Assembly: GCA_015231405.1 (NCBI GenBank)
Contig: JADGBR010000018.1
Location: 1-62,495 of the forward strand
From: Candidatus Omnitrophota bacterium
GTDB taxonomy: Bacteria; Omnitrophota; Gorgyraeia; Tantalellales; Tantalellaceae
Reading direction: 5' to 3'
Length of the DNA stretch: 62,495 nt
The first letter of the stretch is position 1; every line of letters begins with the position of its first letter. Positions 1,073-26,072 of this stretch are shown here, piece by piece. Below the pieces are notes generated by a model. That model saw only the letters and a program-made list of their open reading frames with translations. It made no database searches and was not told the origin of the DNA. A program made the position numbers and the translations under genes.

Positions 1073-4000
1073 ATGAAAAAATATCAGGGCTTGTATTTGA
1101 CTAACAATTGTTTATTAGGTATACTTCATTTCAATATGACCGGCCAAACAATGATGAAAAGAAAAATATTTCACAGAGTTTTCGTAGCAATATCGATTTG
1201 CGCTATGATACTCAACTGTATCGATCTGCCTTATTCCGGCGCTCTTTCTCCCATGCCCGGGAATACCCAGATCAGTGTAAGGCGTGACATGCTCACTGAT
1301 CTACTCTCGGCCACGAGAATAGTCCGTCAAAATAGCCCGGCCGATACCGCTCTTCTCGCTGATAACGAGGTGAACGTTTATTTCAGGGATAACGGCGAGA
1401 TAGTCGTTTCCGAGGAGCTGAAATCAGATGATGTTCTTCTTCTCCGGGCTATTGTCAGGGCCCAGGTGATCGCTTTACTCGGAGTATGGTCAAAAAGTTC
1501 GCCCTACAAACACAAGGTATCAAGGGAGATCATCGCGTCTTGCCCGGATATTACCGCTAAATATCTTTCCATGTTCGCCCCTGAAAAGAGACCGGCCATA
1601 GATTCGCCCGGTTTCGTCGACGGGATGTTCGCTTCGGCTTTCGAGCTTTTGATACCGGTAGACCAGGGACTCCTGGCCATTAGCGAACTAAGACCGGAAG
1701 AGATCGCCTTTCTTGAGGCCGTAAGGCCTGCTGTAAATGAAAATAGAGAGCATTATTTCACTCCCATTTTCTGGGAATGGAAGGCCCGGGAGATACTGAT
1801 ACGCCAGGCCGCTTATTATGGAAAAATATACCGCAAAGACATTCTCGGGAAAGAGAAAGGATCCGCCGAAACAAAACCCGCTAGCTCCCCGCTCAGGCTT
1901 TTATCTGACATGTACCGCGGATTAATGTTCGCCGACTCTCCCCGGAGCGCGGAGGAAATATACGCTATGGGACGGGACCAGCGCGGCGCCGGGGTGACTT
2001 TGGCAGATATCGAGAAGGAATGTTCGGTGCTTTCGAAGACGGGACTGGCGCGAAGGACGGATGAAGGGAAATTCTATCTTGCCGAATGGGTCCGGGCGCT
2101 GGATATCGAGAGATTTATCAAGTATAACCCCGCCCTCGCCGACCCTCTATCGACGGCCGAGGATATCCTTAGCCACGGTATGTTCCCGAGGCATATGGAC
2201 CTCGGCAAAAAGACGGGATACAGGACCCTCCGGAAGATCTCTTCCACTGTGAAGGTCAAGCCGTTCATGGTAGTGGAAGGCCTTGACAGGGAAAGTTCGG
2301 AGGATCTGGTCGGAAAGCTGGCCGGAATGCGTAGACATGATACCATGGGTGAAGGGCTAGTTGTCCCGGATGGGGTCCAGCGTGGGCCCGGAACAATAGT
2401 TGGAGCCATTGAAGGCGCTTTGGCAAGAGCGGCTGATAAAAAATGCGAGATATATGATTTCAGGGACCTGGCACGCATGGGTAACGATTTTTCAGGTGAT
2501 GTCCTCTTCAAGAAAATACTTGCCAGAGGAAAGGACAAACCTGAGCTTGTGATCATCAAGAACGTTTCATGGAACGTGCCCGGAATTGATAAAGACGTCC
2601 TTTTCAGGATATGGCATGCCTGTAAGACCGATAAGTTCACGGAATTCGGTGAAGGTCTGGAATTCGAGCAGACGTTCTTGTTCATAGCCGAACCCGGGGC
2701 AAATATGGATTTCAAACATTATTTTAAGCCCGGAGAGGATCGCGGCAAGGATTATGAGCTTGGGGAGATCACTTTTGCGAGGTTCGATGCGGTAGGGAAC
2801 ATTTCTTTCAATAAACGTTCCGCGTGGGCGGACTTCATACTGGAAGGACAGAGAGAAACTATGCGAGGACTGCCCGAGCCGCAAACAGGCGTCGAACCCC
2901 GGACAAAATGGGGTTTCCCTATGGATGATGACATTATCGATCCCATAAACGCGCAACTAAGCCCCGAAGAGATCCAGTCGGCTGTCGATATCTGGAGCTA
3001 TTACGCCAAGCTTAACCTTTCGGTAACGGCACAGCTTGAGAAGATGTTCAATACGTTCCTTCTCCATGTATCGCCGGAGCTTAGGGAGGCGCTTCTACGC
3101 ATGATGCACCCGCGGGGAGCGAATATAGAGATCAATAACGTTATATTCGCCTGCAATATCCTTTTACCCAAGCTCGGCTGCCCCGATGTGTGCGCGGAAT
3201 TGGCGAAGGAGGCCGGGAAAGAAGTCGATGAGATGTTCGGCGCAAGCGACGACCCGGACGATTTTCTGAGCCTTGCATTGGCCAGGGAGCTCGGTATGTC
3301 TGAACTCATGGTACTCGATCCTTTTTCTCCTGAGTTCCTGGTATCCGGCATGGACGCGGCTTCGTCCGCCGCGGAATATATCGATAAACTTGAGAACATG
3401 AGGATGCCGCCGGTCAAAGACGTCCTGGCAGATATCTCAACCGAAAATGCCGGCAGAACAAAGGAGGCGATAGCGTTCAGAGAGACCGCCGAAGCCGTTA
3501 TGGCCCTGGGAGCTAAACAGCTTTTTTTCCGAATGATAAAGCTTATCCCCGTTGATACCATGGTGGAACTCGGTGAATTGACAAAAGGCCTTAATCCAGT
3601 CGATATCATCGATGCCGGGAAGCTTGTGGATATCGAAAATGCCCTGAAAGATAAATTCACACCTGAAAAACTGTCGAGGGAGGTTTTGCCCGGGGTATCG
3701 GCGGGATATCTTGCCATGAATTATGTTATCGGCAAGGCCGTCCTGGAAGGTTTGGGTGTTACGAACGGGGAAAGCGCCATCGCGCGTGATCTTATGGACA
3801 CGATAGTTTCTTATGACTCAAGCGGGCAAATAGAGATGAGACTTGGCATAGAAGCCAGGGCCTACTCTATAGCCATGGCGATAAGCGTATCGGAAGGGAT
3901 AAGTAAAGACGAGGCCATTAAGAGGGTGAAAGGCGTTGCCGGCAAGATTTACGCCGACATTAAGGATGTACAGAGTTCGCTGATGTCCGTTACAGACATC

Positions 4001-4936
4001 TCCGAAGCTAGTCTCGCGGAGAGGTTTTTGTGGGAGCTTACTTCTGACCTTGAGAGTGTGATACAACTGAATGAAGATGAAGCGCTCAGGATCGTGGACA
4101 ACAAATCAAGAGATATATATCCTCTACGTGCCCGAGCCGCCGCCGAAGGGTGGAGCGACGCTCTTAAAGAAAGGCTGAAAGAGCTCTGGGTCCTGAGAGA
4201 TTTTATATCAGGGAGTGAAGACGGCGTCGAATGGAACGATCTTTTGAACAGCGTTAAGACGCTGAACGAGAAGAACGACCGGTATTTCGATGTTATTGGC
4301 AGAGCCGAGGCCGGCGCGGAGAATTATTACAATACAGGCGAGAGCCTCATCCTTTATGCGGACGATATATTCGACAACACGATGATCGCGGACCTTGGGA
4401 CGGCGTTCCGTAATGTTCTCAGGAACTACAGGCAGGATATCCTTAATGGCGGGAAAGTGTATATCTACGGTCGAGACCCCGTAAAAACCGAGATCCTGGT
4501 CAGGTTCATCCGCCTTTTCAGCCCCGATACCGCGACGGTGACGGTTACTTCCGCCGAACTTTCCGAGGGAAGAAGACACCTTGCCGGGGAAGCCGAGGTT
4601 ATGGAAGCGCTTGTCAGGAAAGTCAGGAGCGAGATATCTTCGACAGGCGGCAGGCTCCTCGGCGTCATAAGGGATACAGGCGACGAGCCCGAAAAACTGG
4701 CCAAAATGGCGGGCGAACTGAAAGTCCCGGTGGTACTTGTCGGCGCGGATAACCGCGGCGGATCGAGATCGATCTATTCGCTGGCCGAAGCCGTGGCCGC
4801 CGCGATGAACATAAATACCAACGAAGGCCGCGGAGGATGGCTCTGTATACTCGACCCCGTGAGGTCCATCGACGGCGACATTAAAGTCCTTCACGACGAA
4901 TACCTGCGCGCTCTCAAGGCACTTGTCGCGGCGTAA
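1073..4936 (+). CDS. Very large exported protein of unknown function (1287 aa)
   Basis: The start at 1073 is preceded by GAAGG five bases upstream. ATG codons at 1136 and 1151 would give a more ordinary signal peptide but have no Shine-Dalgarno sequence. From about residue 27 the protein has a basic n-region (MMKRK) and a hydrophobic core, followed by LPYSGALS, which looks like a Sec signal. The middle (roughly 380-590) alternates helices and strands in a way reminiscent of a degenerate AAA-type ATPase, but I see no convincing Walker A, so this is only an impression. The C-terminal 200 residues form a compact alpha/beta region with repeated hydrophobic strands (IYIYGRDP-like, LLGVI, VPVVLVGAD). 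No known family is recognised. Proteins of this size with a signal peptide are, to my knowledge, frequent in Omnitrophota. Confidence 0.8.
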   Translation: MKKYQGLYLTNNCLLGILHFNMTGQTMMKRKIFHRVFVAISICAMILNCIDLPYSGALSPMPGNTQISVRRDMLTDLLSATRIVRQNSPADTALLADNEVNVYFRDNGEIVVSEELKSDDVLLLRAIVRAQVIALLGVWSKSSPYKHKVSREIIASCPDITAKYLSMFAPEKRPAIDSPGFVDGMFASAFELLIPVDQGLLAISELRPEEIAFLEAVRPAVNENREHYFTPIFWEWKAREILIRQAAYYGKIYRKDILGKEKGSAETKPASSPLRLLSDMYRGLMFADSPRSAEEIYAMGRDQRGAGVTLADIEKECSVLSKTGLARRTDEGKFYLAEWVRALDIERFIKYNPALADPLSTAEDILSHGMFPRHMDLGKKTGYRTLRKISSTVKVKPFMVVEGLDRESSEDLVGKLAGMRRHDTMGEGLVVPDGVQRGPGTIVGAIEGALARAADKKCEIYDFRDLARMGNDFSGDVLFKKILARGKDKPELVIIKNVSWNVPGIDKDVLFRIWHACKTDKFTEFGEGLEFEQTFLFIAEPGANMDFKHYFKPGEDRGKDYELGEITFARFDAVGNISFNKRSAWADFILEGQRETMRGLPEPQTGVEPRTKWGFPMDDDIIDPINAQLSPEEIQSAVDIWSYYAKLNLSVTAQLEKMFNTFLLHVSPELREALLRMMHPRGANIEINNVIFACNILLPKLGCPDVCAELAKEAGKEVDEMFGASDDPDDFLSLALARELGMSELMVLDPFSPEFLVSGMDAASSAAEYIDKLENMRMPPVKDVLADISTENAGRTKEAIAFRETAEAVMALGAKQLFFRMIKLIPVDTMVELGELTKGLNPVDIIDAGKLVDIENALKDKFTPEKLSREVLPGVSAGYLAMNYVIGKAVLEGLGVTNGESAIARDLMDTIVSYDSSGQIEMRLGIEARAYSIAMAISVSEGISKDEAIKRVKGVAGKIYADIKDVQSSLMSVTDISEASLAERFLWELTSDLESVIQLNEDEALRIVDNKSRDIYPLRARAAAEGWSDALKERLKELWVLRDFISGSEDGVEWNDLLNSVKTLNEKNDRYFDVIGRAEAGAENYYNTGESLILYADDIFDNTMIADLGTAFRNVLRNYRQDILNGGKVYIYGRDPVKTEILVRFIRLFSPDTATVTVTSAELSEGRRHLAGEAEVMEALVRKVRSEISSTGGRLLGVIRDTGDEPEKLAKMAGELKVPVVLVGADNRGGSRSIYSLAEAVAAAMNINTNEGRGGWLCILDPVRSIDGDIKVLHDEYLRALKALVAA

Positions 4937-21876: not shown

Positions 21877-22016
21877 AAACTGCTCCTTCCGAAAATTAAG
21901 TTTTATTATATCAGAAACCCTGTTGAATGTGACAAGCTTTCAGGTTAGCATGCAAAAGGCCTTATTTACTCTGCCTGGCATAAGTCGAACTCACTACACC
22001 GTTAGTGCAATAAAAG

Positions 22017-22045
22017 TTGACTATTTCCCGGGTTTGTCATATAAT
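22017..22045 (+). promoter_or_regulatory. Near-consensus promoter of small RNA copy 1
   Basis: TTGACT (22017-22022) and TATAAT (22040-22045) are separated by exactly 17 bases. The upstream block GTTAGTGCAATAAAAG (22001-22016) is conserved in copy 2 with one difference, suggesting an UP element or activator site. A short inverted repeat (CACTA, TAGTG) surrounds the upstream block. Confidence 0.8.
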
Positions 22046-22051
22046 GATATC

Positions 22052-22103
22052 GTCAGAGGGGCTAGAAGACCTAGAGGAGCTGAGAAATCAGCTCTTTTTT
22101 TTT
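22052..22103 (+). ncRNA. Candidate small RNA, copy 1 (about 52 nt)
   Basis: Initiation seven bases after the -10 gives an RNA starting GTCAGAGGGG and ending in an intrinsic terminator. It has no start codon or room for an open frame, and both flanking genes are on the minus strand, so it is not a leader. The 5' part contains AGAGGGG and AGAGGAGC, which look like Shine-Dalgarno or GGA motifs. Copy 2 at 23679 has the same layout. I do not recognise the family: it is not tmRNA, 6S, SRP RNA or a known riboswitch. Confidence 0.7.
22077..22103 (+). terminator. Intrinsic terminator of small RNA copy 1
   Basis: Stem GAGCTGA with TCAGCTC closed by a GAAA (GNRA) tetraloop, followed by nine T residues (22095-22103). 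Confidence 0.9.
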
Positions 22104-22219
22104 ACTCCCTGAATATTCCCGAACCGTTAATTTCACCGACAGCAGCGACCGTCACGGCTTCATCAAGTAGCCCTCGTCTTCATAAGCGGTTCCCTATTAT
22201 GATCGGGACTTTCCCAGCC

Positions 22220-22837
22220 TCAATCATTGACGATCTCAAAACTACTGAATTTTCCGTCTTCAAGGCGGATCAGCAACCATTCATAATCGAGGCCGAAATA
22301 ACTATCCCGCTCAGGCCCCAAAACATAGATCAAGTCATATTGCCCTTTGAAATGATCGGTCCTGGTTGAAGGTCCCAAAATATTCTCGATCTCTTGTTTT
22401 GATTTGCCGGGAAGCACCGCACAAACGACATCCTTCAGCATTTTTTGCCTGACCGTAACAAGGTCTTCGGGCAAAGGCTTTGATCCGTCATTTCTCCACG
22501 AGACTGAATCAAACCCAAGCAGATCAGACCCTGTAGGCAAATGATGCGGGAAATAACGTCCGACCAGGATCCAGATCAGTATCATCGCCGGACCTAAATA
22601 GGCAAATTGCCGGATAACAATGTGCGCTTTCTTTGAAAAAAGACGCAATATACCCATAATGACCAGGCAAAGAATGGAAAAAAGAACGATACAGCTGAAG
22701 ATCATGGTTGCAATAAAGGAAAAACCCTCTCGGGAACCCGGGACCCATTCGTAATGAACGACGAGCCACAACAATATCACGTCAGCTATAAATGCCGACG
22801 GTATGAAGAACCAGTTGCGTAGCCGTATTCCTCGCAT
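22220..22837 (-). CDS. Hypothetical membrane protein with a BamE/SmpA-like C-terminal region
   Basis: 205 residues. Three hydrophobic segments lie in the first 95 residues (about 11-27, 40-63 and 78-93). A soluble C-terminal domain contains LPGKSKQEIENILG followed by paired strands ending YEWLLIRLEDGKFSSFEIVND. The pattern 'hydrophilic helix, ILG, then Y-x-x-G, then W/L-x-I-x-x-x-x-G' is common in small lipoprotein-like domains related to BamE/SmpA, but the similarity is only structural in character. A good ribosome binding site (AGAGGA) precedes the ATG. The gene is richer in A+T than its neighbours and lies between the two small RNA copies. Function unknown. Confidence 0.7.
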   Translation of the reverse strand: MRGIRLRNWFFIPSAFIADVILLWLVVHYEWVPGSREGFSFIATMIFSCIVLFSILCLVIMGILRLFSKKAHIVIRQFAYLGPAMILIWILVGRYFPHHLPTGSDLLGFDSVSWRNDGSKPLPEDLVTVRQKMLKDVVCAVLPGKSKQEIENILGPSTRTDHFKGQYDLIYVLGPERDSYFGLDYEWLLIRLEDGKFSSFEIVND

Positions 22838-22919
22838 ATCGGTCCTCTTCGATATCTAGAGCTCGCGTCCGCAATTAGTGGGAATGTTGAATAAAAAATA
22901 ACGACTCATTTACTATCTC

Positions 22920-23375
22920 TTATTCGTAAACCTTTGAATCATTGCTTTCACCAAATATCCAATATCGTATATGAGCTTTGCCCCGATATTCTATTTCCCT
23001 GTATTCAACGGCAATAGCTGATATAGTAACATTAATTTCGCATGATTGGTGCGCGAGAAATCTTAATATTCGCGAGGCCGGATCATATTCCGCGCCATCG
23101 AAGGAATACGTGCCGATCCCGGACTTATCGATAACTTCATATTTTTGGACATTAGAGATCTTTAGGACGCACCTTAGGCAATCGACCTCGCCAACTTCGG
23201 ACAATAGCCCGCGTTTAATGATCCGCGGAGAGCTGTAGTAATGGAAGATCCTGCGAAAAGGGATCTCAAGCGCGCTGCCGTCTTTTTTGACCTCATCCAA
23301 ACTGAAATACTCATCGTGGATCAGATCGTTCAAGGGGTTCAATTGAGAGGCATCATTAAAGTTTAAAATTTTCAT
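22920..23375 (-). CDS. Hypothetical protein (151 aa)
   Basis: A soluble protein of mixed alpha/beta character with no signal or membrane segment. The N-terminus (LNDLIHDEYFSLDEV, then ALEIPFRRIF) resembles a small family of uncharacterised bacterial proteins with an HD-x-YF motif; I know no function for it. Start and stop are well defined, but the ribosome binding site is weak. It shares the A+T-richer composition of its neighbour, and the pair is bracketed by the two small RNA copies. Confidence 0.6.
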   Translation of the reverse strand: MKILNFNDASQLNPLNDLIHDEYFSLDEVKKDGSALEIPFRRIFHYYSSPRIIKRGLLSEVGEVDCLRCVLKISNVQKYEVIDKSGIGTYSFDGAEYDPASRILRFLAHQSCEINVTISAIAVEYREIEYRGKAHIRYWIFGESNDSKVYE

Positions 23376-23460
23376 ATTAGCGACTCATCAACGCTGACAA
23401 CATCTCACCGCTTTATTATTCCAGACGCTTTTCAAAACAACATGCTACTAAATTATTACT

Positions 23461-23556
23461 GCAACAAATACGGGTATTCCGTTACCTGTCCGTGTTCACC
23501 CCATAAATCTTCAGACTGATCAACGCTCTACCGTACGGCTTACCCGTATTTGTTGC
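23461..23556. repeat. Perfect 16-bp inverted repeat with a 64-base spacer
   Basis: GCAACAAATACGGGTA at 23461-23476 is the exact reverse complement of 23541-23556, and partial pairing continues inward (CCGTTAC with GTACGG). It lies in the 313-base intergenic region before small RNA copy 2. It could be a long hairpin of a structured RNA, a small non-autonomous mobile element or a paired binding site. No open frame occupies the spacer. Confidence 0.8.
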
Positions 23557-23643
23557 GGAATTCCATATCCTATATATGTTTATGTACACTGTCTGCACCG
23601 CTTATGGAAAATTTATACTAAAATAATGTTAGTCCAATAAAAG

Positions 23644-23672
23644 TTGACTGTTTGCCGCGTTTTTTGTATAAT
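23644..23672 (+). promoter_or_regulatory. Near-consensus promoter of small RNA copy 2
   Basis: TTGACT (23644-23649) and TATAAT (23667-23672) are 17 bases apart, as in copy 1, although the spacer sequence has largely diverged. The upstream block GTTAGTCCAATAAAAG is shared with copy 1. Conservation of both hexamers and the upstream block while the spacer drifts supports function. Confidence 0.8.
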
Positions 23673-23678
23673 GATGTT

Positions 23679-23733
23679 GTCAGAGGGGTTATAAAAGACC
23701 AAGAGGAGCCGAGCGATCGGCTCCTTTTTTTTT
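23679..23733 (+). ncRNA. Candidate small RNA, copy 2 (about 55 nt)
   Basis: It begins GTCAGAGGGG like copy 1, has a two-base longer middle (TTATAAAAGACC) and the same AGAGGAGC before the terminator stem. Its 3' part is antisense to the last 14 codons and stop of the methyltransferase gene on the minus strand (stop at 23689-23691). It could therefore act on that messenger as well as in trans. Confidence 0.7.
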
Positions 23734-24456
23734 AAAAACACATCCGTAATTTAAAGTGAAGTCGCGTTCCCCGTCGAGTATGTCTAATAAGCTTGTTAAA
23801 GGGCCCAGAAGCAAAGAGAAAATAACGGCCCCTGCTAATTTGAAAGGCAATACCATCAAACGCCAAAATCCGTTCTTTACTCTGGAAAAAGCCACGAGGG
23901 GTATATATTGGATCCTGTTGCCGAGGTAATTAAAAAAACCTCCCAGAGGCTCGATACTTGAGACCTCCATCCCGGCCTGGCCCGCAAGATGCCTTAGTCC
24001 GTATGAAGTGAACCTGAAATAATCTTCGGGCTTCATGTGTTCTCCCCATCCCTGGGGCGCGGTCAAAAGCAGATCGCCGCCCGGTTTTAAGACACGTCTC
24101 AGTTCCTTAAGTAAAGTGATGGGTTCTTTTACGTGCTCAAGGACCTGTAAGCATAATATCCTGTCAAAGGCGGAATCTTTCGCCGGGATGTTCAGGAGGT
24201 CCCCCACCACATCTATATTACACCCCGCCCTCCGCGACAGGTCTAAGGCTATATACCCGCCTTTCACCAGCTTTCTGTATTGCCCCAGCCCGCATCCGGC
24301 GTCCAGTACCAGCATCCCGAGCGGCCCTTTCTTAAGTTCCCGTCCGAGAAATTTTATTATCTCCCTATCCTGCGGAAAAAAAAACGATACTACCCCGAAA
24401 GGCAGCCTAGATTTAATAAATGTTATCGGATCGGTATCCATGAATCGATCTCTCAC
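23689..24456 (-). CDS. Class I SAM-dependent methyltransferase
   Basis: 255 residues from a GTG at 24456 that overlaps the stop of the radical SAM gene (GTGA); an ATG at 24441 is the alternative. SAM motif I is VLDAGCGLGQYR near residue 47, followed by YIALDLS, and the post-I region is FDRILCLQVLEHVKEPITLLKELRRVLKPGG, typical of Methyltransf_11. The C-terminal third is hydrophobic and may touch the membrane. The final 14 codons are antisense to small RNA copy 2 and its terminator, and the tail KKKGADRSAPLGLL looks fortuitous. The original end of the gene may have been replaced when the RNA element arrived. The likely role is methylation of a glycan or lipid. Confidence 0.85.
   Translation of the reverse strand: MRDRFMDTDPITFIKSRLPFGVVSFFFPQDREIIKFLGRELKKGPLGMLVLDAGCGLGQYRKLVKGGYIALDLSRRAGCNIDVVGDLLNIPAKDSAFDRILCLQVLEHVKEPITLLKELRRVLKPGGDLLLTAPQGWGEHMKPEDYFRFTSYGLRHLAGQAGMEVSSIEPLGGFFNYLGNRIQYIPLVAFSRVKNGFWRLMVLPFKLAGAVIFSLLLGPLTSLLDILDGERDFTLNYGCVFKKKGADRSAPLGLL
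23705..23733 (+). terminator. Intrinsic terminator of small RNA copy 2
   Basis: Stem GGAGCCGA with TCGGCTCC, loop GCGA (GNRA), then nine T residues (23725-23733). Compared with copy 1, one T-A pair has become C-G and one G-T pair has become G-C, so pairing is maintained. Confidence 0.9.
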
Positions 24457-25961: not shown

Positions 25962-25988
25962 GCCAAATTCTGCTTCGCAAAATTTGGC
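25962..25988. repeat. Strong hairpin overlapping the 3' CCA end of tRNA-Ser
   Basis: GCCAAATTCTGC (25962-25973), loop TTC, then GCAAAATTTGGC (25977-25988) pair over 12 positions with one mismatch. The right arm contains the encoded CCA and discriminator base of the tRNA, so in the precursor RNA the mature 3' end would be buried in a stem. Confidence 0.75.
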
Positions 25989-26072
25989 GGAGAGATAGGG
26001 ATTCGAACCCTAGGTACGTTGCCGCACACACGCTTTCCAAGCGTGCTCCTTAAACCACTCGGACATCTCTCC
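25985..26072 (-). tRNA. tRNA-Ser (anticodon GGA), CCA encoded
   Basis: The acceptor stem GGAGAGA pairs with TCTCTCC. The D-arm region is GTCCGAGTGGTTTAAGGA, the anticodon loop CTTGGAAAG presents GGA, and the long variable arm (GTGTGCGGCAACGTAC) marks a class II serine tRNA. The T-arm AGGGTTCGAATCCCT is canonical. Discriminator G is followed by an encoded CCA. It lies at the left border of the glycan locus. Confidence 0.97.

Follow-up and report, generated by a model that had tools for sequence, protein, structure and literature searches.

The window analyzed here (62,495 nucleotides; contig JADGBR010000018.1 of a Candidatus Omnitrophota bacterium) contains two short, closely similar stretches, each with a promoter and a terminator of its own. 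The initial annotation had read the pattern of their likeness as selection on a transcribed, folded RNA. Feature coordinates are collected in Table 1.

Units with their own promoter and terminator

The two stretches (copy 1, 22001-22103; copy 2, 23628-23733) are diverged copies of one layout, which runs from an upstream block through TTGACT, 17 nt, TATAAT and a short body to a terminator. This agrees with the earlier description, in which the coordinates were exact for copy 1 and one base late (23629) for the start of copy 2. In a search against the whole genome the copies were 82% identical over ~104 nt (E = 7.9e-23). The likeness ended sharply at GTTAGT on the upstream side and at the T-run on the downstream side, and a comparison of the flanks found no likeness beyond these boundaries. 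Identity was 15/16 in the block, 6/6 in both the -35 and the -10, and 11/17 in the spacer, so that the spacers had indeed diverged while the hexamers were kept; it was 9/10 in the 5' body, 9/15 in the middle of the body, and 10/11 and 9/11 in the two terminator stem arms. In the stem, the reported replacements of T-A by C-G and of G-T by G-C were likewise correct, as were the GNRA loops (GAAA in copy 1, GCGA in copy 2). Promoter-like sites numbered 7 in the region vs. 5.2 ± 2.3 in shuffles, i.e., the region was not richer than shuffled sequence.

Whole-genome search identified a third unit on the minus strand (copy 3, G000:C28:19758-19865). Common to all three were the block GTTAGT(G/C)CAATAAAAG (15-16/16), TTGACT, a 17-nt spacer (10-11/17 identical), TATAATGAT and a GNRA-capped terminator, with GAGA as the loop in copy 3. 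The sequence GTCAGAGGGG was identical in copies 1 and 2; the transcribed body of copy 3 (GTTAAACAAATCCGTTGGGGGGCAAAA) was unrelated to it, and only the block, hexamers and terminator were shared. Folding z-scores were strong for copies 2 (-4.2) and 3 (-3.5), and ordinary for copy 1 (-1.3).

All genes adjoining copies 1 and 2 lie on the opposite strand, and a test for a cis-acting leader or attenuator found no co-directional gene directly downstream of either copy, which upholds the view that they are not leaders. All three units were antisense to both neighbors, and the terminators of copies 2 and 3 overlapped the 3' ends of convergent genes. For copy 2 this was the end of a methyltransferase ORF (23689-24456, minus), whose last residues (KKKGADRSAPLGLL) are encoded antisense to predicted small RNA 2. 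Copy 3 adjoins BrnT-like toxin and CopG-like antitoxin ORFs (L003 910-1504; both below Pfam cut-offs), which converge on it and share its terminator. With its own promoter and intrinsic terminator, no ORF and no co-directional gene downstream, each unit had the sequence features of a trans-acting terminated sRNA. The best reading of each copy is a short, terminated, apparently undescribed transcription unit, and the units are probably genes for very short RNAs.

Table 1. Positions of predicted features in the window.
Feature	Position	Strand	Basis
Operator-like site, copy 1 (GTTAGTGCAATAAAA)	22001..22015	+	GTTAGNNCAATAAAA genome matches, 9 vs. 0 for reversed control; shared with giant-gene promoters
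Promoter, copy 1: TTGACT, 17 nt, TATAAT	22017..22045	+	Sequence; 11/12 sigma-70 consensus positions
Predicted small RNA 1, ~52 nt	22052..22103	+	Distance after -10, end at T-run
Intrinsic terminator hairpin, copy 1, GAAA loop	22073..22098	+	Folding, terminator scan
Operator-like site, copy 2 (GTTAGTCCAATAAAA)	23628..23642	+	As for copy 1
Promoter, copy 2: TTGACT, 17 nt, TATAAT	23644..23672	+	Sequence; 11/12 sigma-70 consensus positions
Predicted small RNA 2, ~55 nt	23679..23733	+	Sequence, folding
Intrinsic terminator hairpin, copy 2, GCGA loop	23701..23728	+	Folding, terminator scan
Weaker operator-like site (GTTAGTCAAATACAA)	1091..1105	-	Matrix score 16.6; large secreted ORFs diverge on either side

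An operator-like site at genes for giant secreted proteins

The upstream block, as GTTAGNNCAATAAAA, had 9 exact matches in the 3.66 Mb of the own genome vs. 0 for a reversed control. Three of the nine were the units; the other six preceded ORFs of at least 1002 and up to 4333 aa, namely 1282 aa (C19), 3089 aa (C22), at least 1002 aa (C31), 4333 aa (C33), at least 1213 aa (C40) and 2318 aa (C66). All six of these ORFs began with signal-peptide-like N-termini, as judged by reading and a crude hydrophobicity score rather than a dedicated predictor. In a baseline sample of 315 ORFs ≥150 aa, drawn from the window and 400 kb of other stretches, 3.5% reached 1000 aa and 24% had a comparable hydrophobic N-terminal core; by our own arithmetic, six long ORFs out of six would arise by chance with a probability of ~2e-9 on length alone. 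This enrichment is not circular, since the sites were picked by sequence only. A blastp comparison among the operator-linked proteins found no similarity.

Near-matches to the site preceded further ORFs with signal-peptide-like starts, in C16 (1076 aa), C33:79986 (734 aa), C55 (5197 aa), C10 (2751 aa), C27 (424 aa) and C74 (truncated at the contig edge). Reading on the opposite strand added C2 (157 aa) and C11:386505 (at least 321 aa), whose starts were of the same kind. The exceptions were a PilZ-like ORF (C29) and a ubiE-like ORF (C88), both named by reading. A site matrix gave a single match scoring ≥14 in 400 kb of other stretches. In the window, the weaker site of Table 1 has an ORF with a signal-peptide-like start on each side: on the minus strand 3-935, which is truncated by the contig end, and on the plus strand 1073-4936 (1287 aa), whose true start is probably 1151. 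Among the giant secreted ORFs in the 400 kb of other stretches, some (e.g., of 1508 and 1495 aa) had no site and several large ones had weak sites only; the regulon therefore takes in only part of them.

Where the site stood with respect to the promoter varied from gene to gene. It lay upstream of the -35 in the three units and C33, between -35 and -10 in C16, over the -10 in C33:79986 and just after the -10 in C31 and C66; both orientations occurred, and C19 had two sites in inverted arrangement with 5 bp between them. The 12-mer TTAGTCCAATAA has imperfect dyad symmetry (TTA...TAA), and the operators of coding genes shared nothing beyond the site itself. Enrichment across the genome at promoters whose genes are alike in function, with position and orientation varying, is the pattern of a transcription-factor regulon, and the upstream block is on this reading a DNA control site that is not specific to the RNAs.

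This variation bears on two other explanations: it speaks against both a plain UP element and a spread through duplicated promoters, and it favors a repressor. Were the block an UP element, or an extension of the promoter sequence at strong promoters, with no dedicated regulator, its AT-richness and its abutment on the -35 in the three units would be accounted for, and strong sigma-70-like promoters are abundant in the own genome (69 matches vs. 10 in the control); but the many other strong promoters in that set lack the block, and the site also occurs between the hexamers, over or after the -10, in both orientations and as the inverted pair, which makes this explanation improbable. Even less credence is given to the units being a small mobile or repetitive element present in several copies, or remnants of giant-gene promoters that were duplicated. 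There are three copies, two of them 1.6 kb apart, with no close homologue elsewhere, as such an origin would have it; however, the boundaries of the units coincide with the operator and the terminator, their flanks are unlike, and coding-gene operators have only the site in common.

The initial annotation had taken the conserved block, the hexamers and the compensated stem as signs of selection on a folded RNA. That argument did not hold, as the block is common to at least six giant secreted-protein promoters and others and its conservation is attributed to promoter control. Conservation of block and hexamers together would be explained by co-regulation and compensation in the stem by termination; changes of this kind would be tolerated in the stem of any intrinsic terminator. 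Copy 3, against which the RNA sequence could be checked, has no GTCAGAGGGG. Since that sequence is identical in copies 1 and 2 and absent from copy 3, selection on the RNA sequence is suggested at most, and for two copies only.

Short motifs that are alike were also observed after the signal peptides of several otherwise unrelated operator-linked giants (e.g., L143, L148, L145 and the window ORF 3-935): NLQVQSIF, NLQVQSRF and NLQVQT, as well as NLAPS, LSPMPG and TLSPW. These may possibly be a common sorting or processing signal. The genome itself (G000, 3.66 Mb) exceeds most others in its class about twofold in size and is rich in ORFs >1000 aa.

Homologue searches and the function of the RNA

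In the window, Rfam 15 at curated thresholds gave a tRNA (25988-26072) as its sole match and none for the units, and a relaxed Rfam search with copies 2 and 3 gave no match on the strand of the units, in keeping with the statement that no named family has this layout. A covariance model of the three copies found no convincing outside homologue in 246 class genomes, a set that contains no other genome of the genus. The absence of homologues in related genomes had been named beforehand as grounds for rejecting the small RNA; this was borne out in part, the class genomes having yielded nothing convincing. Outside covariance matches (E 5e-4 to 0.1) were, by reading, generic terminators or promoter-terminator leaders before genes. 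Two of them, L258 (G004:C66:45590-45695) and L263 (G032:C30:46102-46208), consisted of a promoter, a ~60-nt body and a terminator, after which came another terminator and, ahead of the gene, a ribosome site; both look like attenuated leaders. The match in C88 (E 4.5e-4) was rejected as a unit, being an operator before the ubiE-like gene with no terminator. A search of genome_contigs (84,980 species) for the pattern of block, -35 and -10 gave 5 matches; every one of them came from another bacterium and lacked the GTTAGT part, and those that were read were ordinary gene promoters; with block plus TTGAC in 292 class genomes, the own genome alone was above control.

The putative seed was kept in copies 1 and 2 and absent from copy 3. 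When predicted pairing of the RNA with mRNA starts was compared, the regulon scored below the controls, and this comparison found no target; targets, if any, would therefore lie outside the regulon or elsewhere in the mRNAs. The weaker pairing is ascribed to the AT-richness of the regulon starts.

Binding of a GGA-recognizing protein had also been suggested. As a sponge for a protein of the CsrA/RsmA type, or as a mimic of a ribosome binding site, the RNA would make use of AGAGGAGC and AGAGGGG, which are purine-rich and Shine-Dalgarno-like. Sponge RNAs of the CsrB/RsmY/RsmZ type carry repeated GGA loop motifs. The units resemble these in being purine-rich and short and in containing a GGA; they differ in that there is one AGGA per RNA, paired at the base of the terminator stem, and the several single-stranded GGA loops of the known sponges are absent. 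This suggestion was not borne out, and of all the explanations weighed it is given the least credence.

A more serious rival, because all three units are antisense to both neighbors, is a decoy or insulator whose RNA has no function: the operator would titrate the regulator, or short transcription would oppose read-through between opposite-strand neighbors. Copy 3, in which operator and promoter are kept and the body differs, fits this, as do the terminators of copies 2 and 3 at convergent 3' ends. Yet GTCAGAGGGG stayed identical in copies 1 and 2 while the spacer drifted to 11/17, a decoy would have no need of a promoter and terminator, and the orientation of three cases is weak evidence. We regard it as unlikely, though well above the other alternatives.

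A predicted regulon and its occurrence in other genomes

The DNA itself shows the units, the site and its enrichment across the genome, the giant signal-peptide ORFs that accompany it, and a variant in a second genus (below). The explanation we favor, with some reserve, is that the units give rise to short terminated RNAs whose expression goes together with that of a giant secreted-protein regulon. Each copy would be a tiny autonomous transcription unit, in which the operator (GTTAGNNCAATAAAA) abuts a near-consensus sigma-70 promoter and the transcript is an RNA of ~52-57 nt ending at the GNRA-capped intrinsic terminator. A DNA-binding protein, probably a repressor given that the site is found elsewhere in between the two hexamers, overlapping the -10 or directly downstream of the -10, would hold the operator-bearing promoters until a signal releases it, after which RNAs and giant secreted proteins would be made together. 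The RNAs are placed in the regulon because the operator is common to the promoters of mutually unrelated giant secreted-protein genes, which suggests that both are switched together. On C/U-rich mRNAs that do not belong to the regulon, the RNA could then act in trans by way of its 5' segment, which is G-rich and single-stranded (GUCAGAGGGG; in copy 3, UUGGGGGGC). We are confident of the operator part of this explanation; the trans-acting RNA part is far less firm, and is put forward tentatively as somewhat doubtful. That, in a bacterium of an uncultured lineage with giant ORFs, a single operator governs a dedicated giant-secreted-protein regulon which includes a family of ~55-nt sRNAs, adjusting the rest of the cell when the giants are made, is a bolder proposal and on the whole rather unlikely. 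The likely regulon of giant secreted proteins is a more interesting result than the RNA reading.

Multicopy trans-acting sRNAs that belong to a regulon are known from the Qrr and OmrA/OmrB types. Like these, the units would be several short terminated RNAs with near-identical regulated promoters, partly different bodies and predicted co-expression with a set of protein genes. In contrast to them, they are of other sequence and lineage, are shorter than most at ~55 nt, and would belong to a regulon of giant secreted proteins.

The giant ORFs described for Omnitrophota encode secreted-type proteins of great length in which few domains are recognized, and one of them has dockerin domains (PMC10066038). 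The operator here likewise marks very long secreted-type proteins, and the C22 protein had dockerin matches. A literature search found no paper on the control of giant-ORF genes or on small RNAs in Omnitrophota. In some uncultured lineages giant ORFs pose a puzzle, and a shared operator offers a sequence handle on their control: it predicts which giant genes are expressed together and that the short RNAs rise and fall with them, both testable in existing metatranscriptomes, and could serve as bait for the regulator.

The own-genome block pattern was at chance level in 116 other genomes of the class (11 matches vs. 13 in the control), as it was across the other 17 genomes of the family and the rest of the class; the site therefore either drifts quickly or the regulon is restricted. 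In G004, of the same family and another genus, a variant form GTTAG-N-(C/T)-TAATAAAA occurred at five sites, each of them before a signal-peptide ORF; three of these ORFs have at least 1582, 1546 and 1645 aa, and the other two have 673 and 875 aa. Exact GTTAGNCTAATAAAA was found four times in G004, each time before a gene for a large secreted protein, and a single time in the 290 class genomes that remain when G004 and the own genome are set aside. Relaxed G004 sites added further secreted ORFs, and at two genes the operator abuts TTGAC as in the units. Matches to GTTACCACAATAAAA in G008 and GTTAGATCAATCAAA in G010 were set aside as repeats in coding or other contexts and not secreted-gene operators.

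At one further place in G004 (L247, G004:C27:28562-28576), an operator and promoter stand before a non-coding stretch that starts near AUGGGAGGAGAUA, has no ORF for ~280 nt and contains a long, strong terminator hairpin; it may be a parallel noncoding RNA or a leader.
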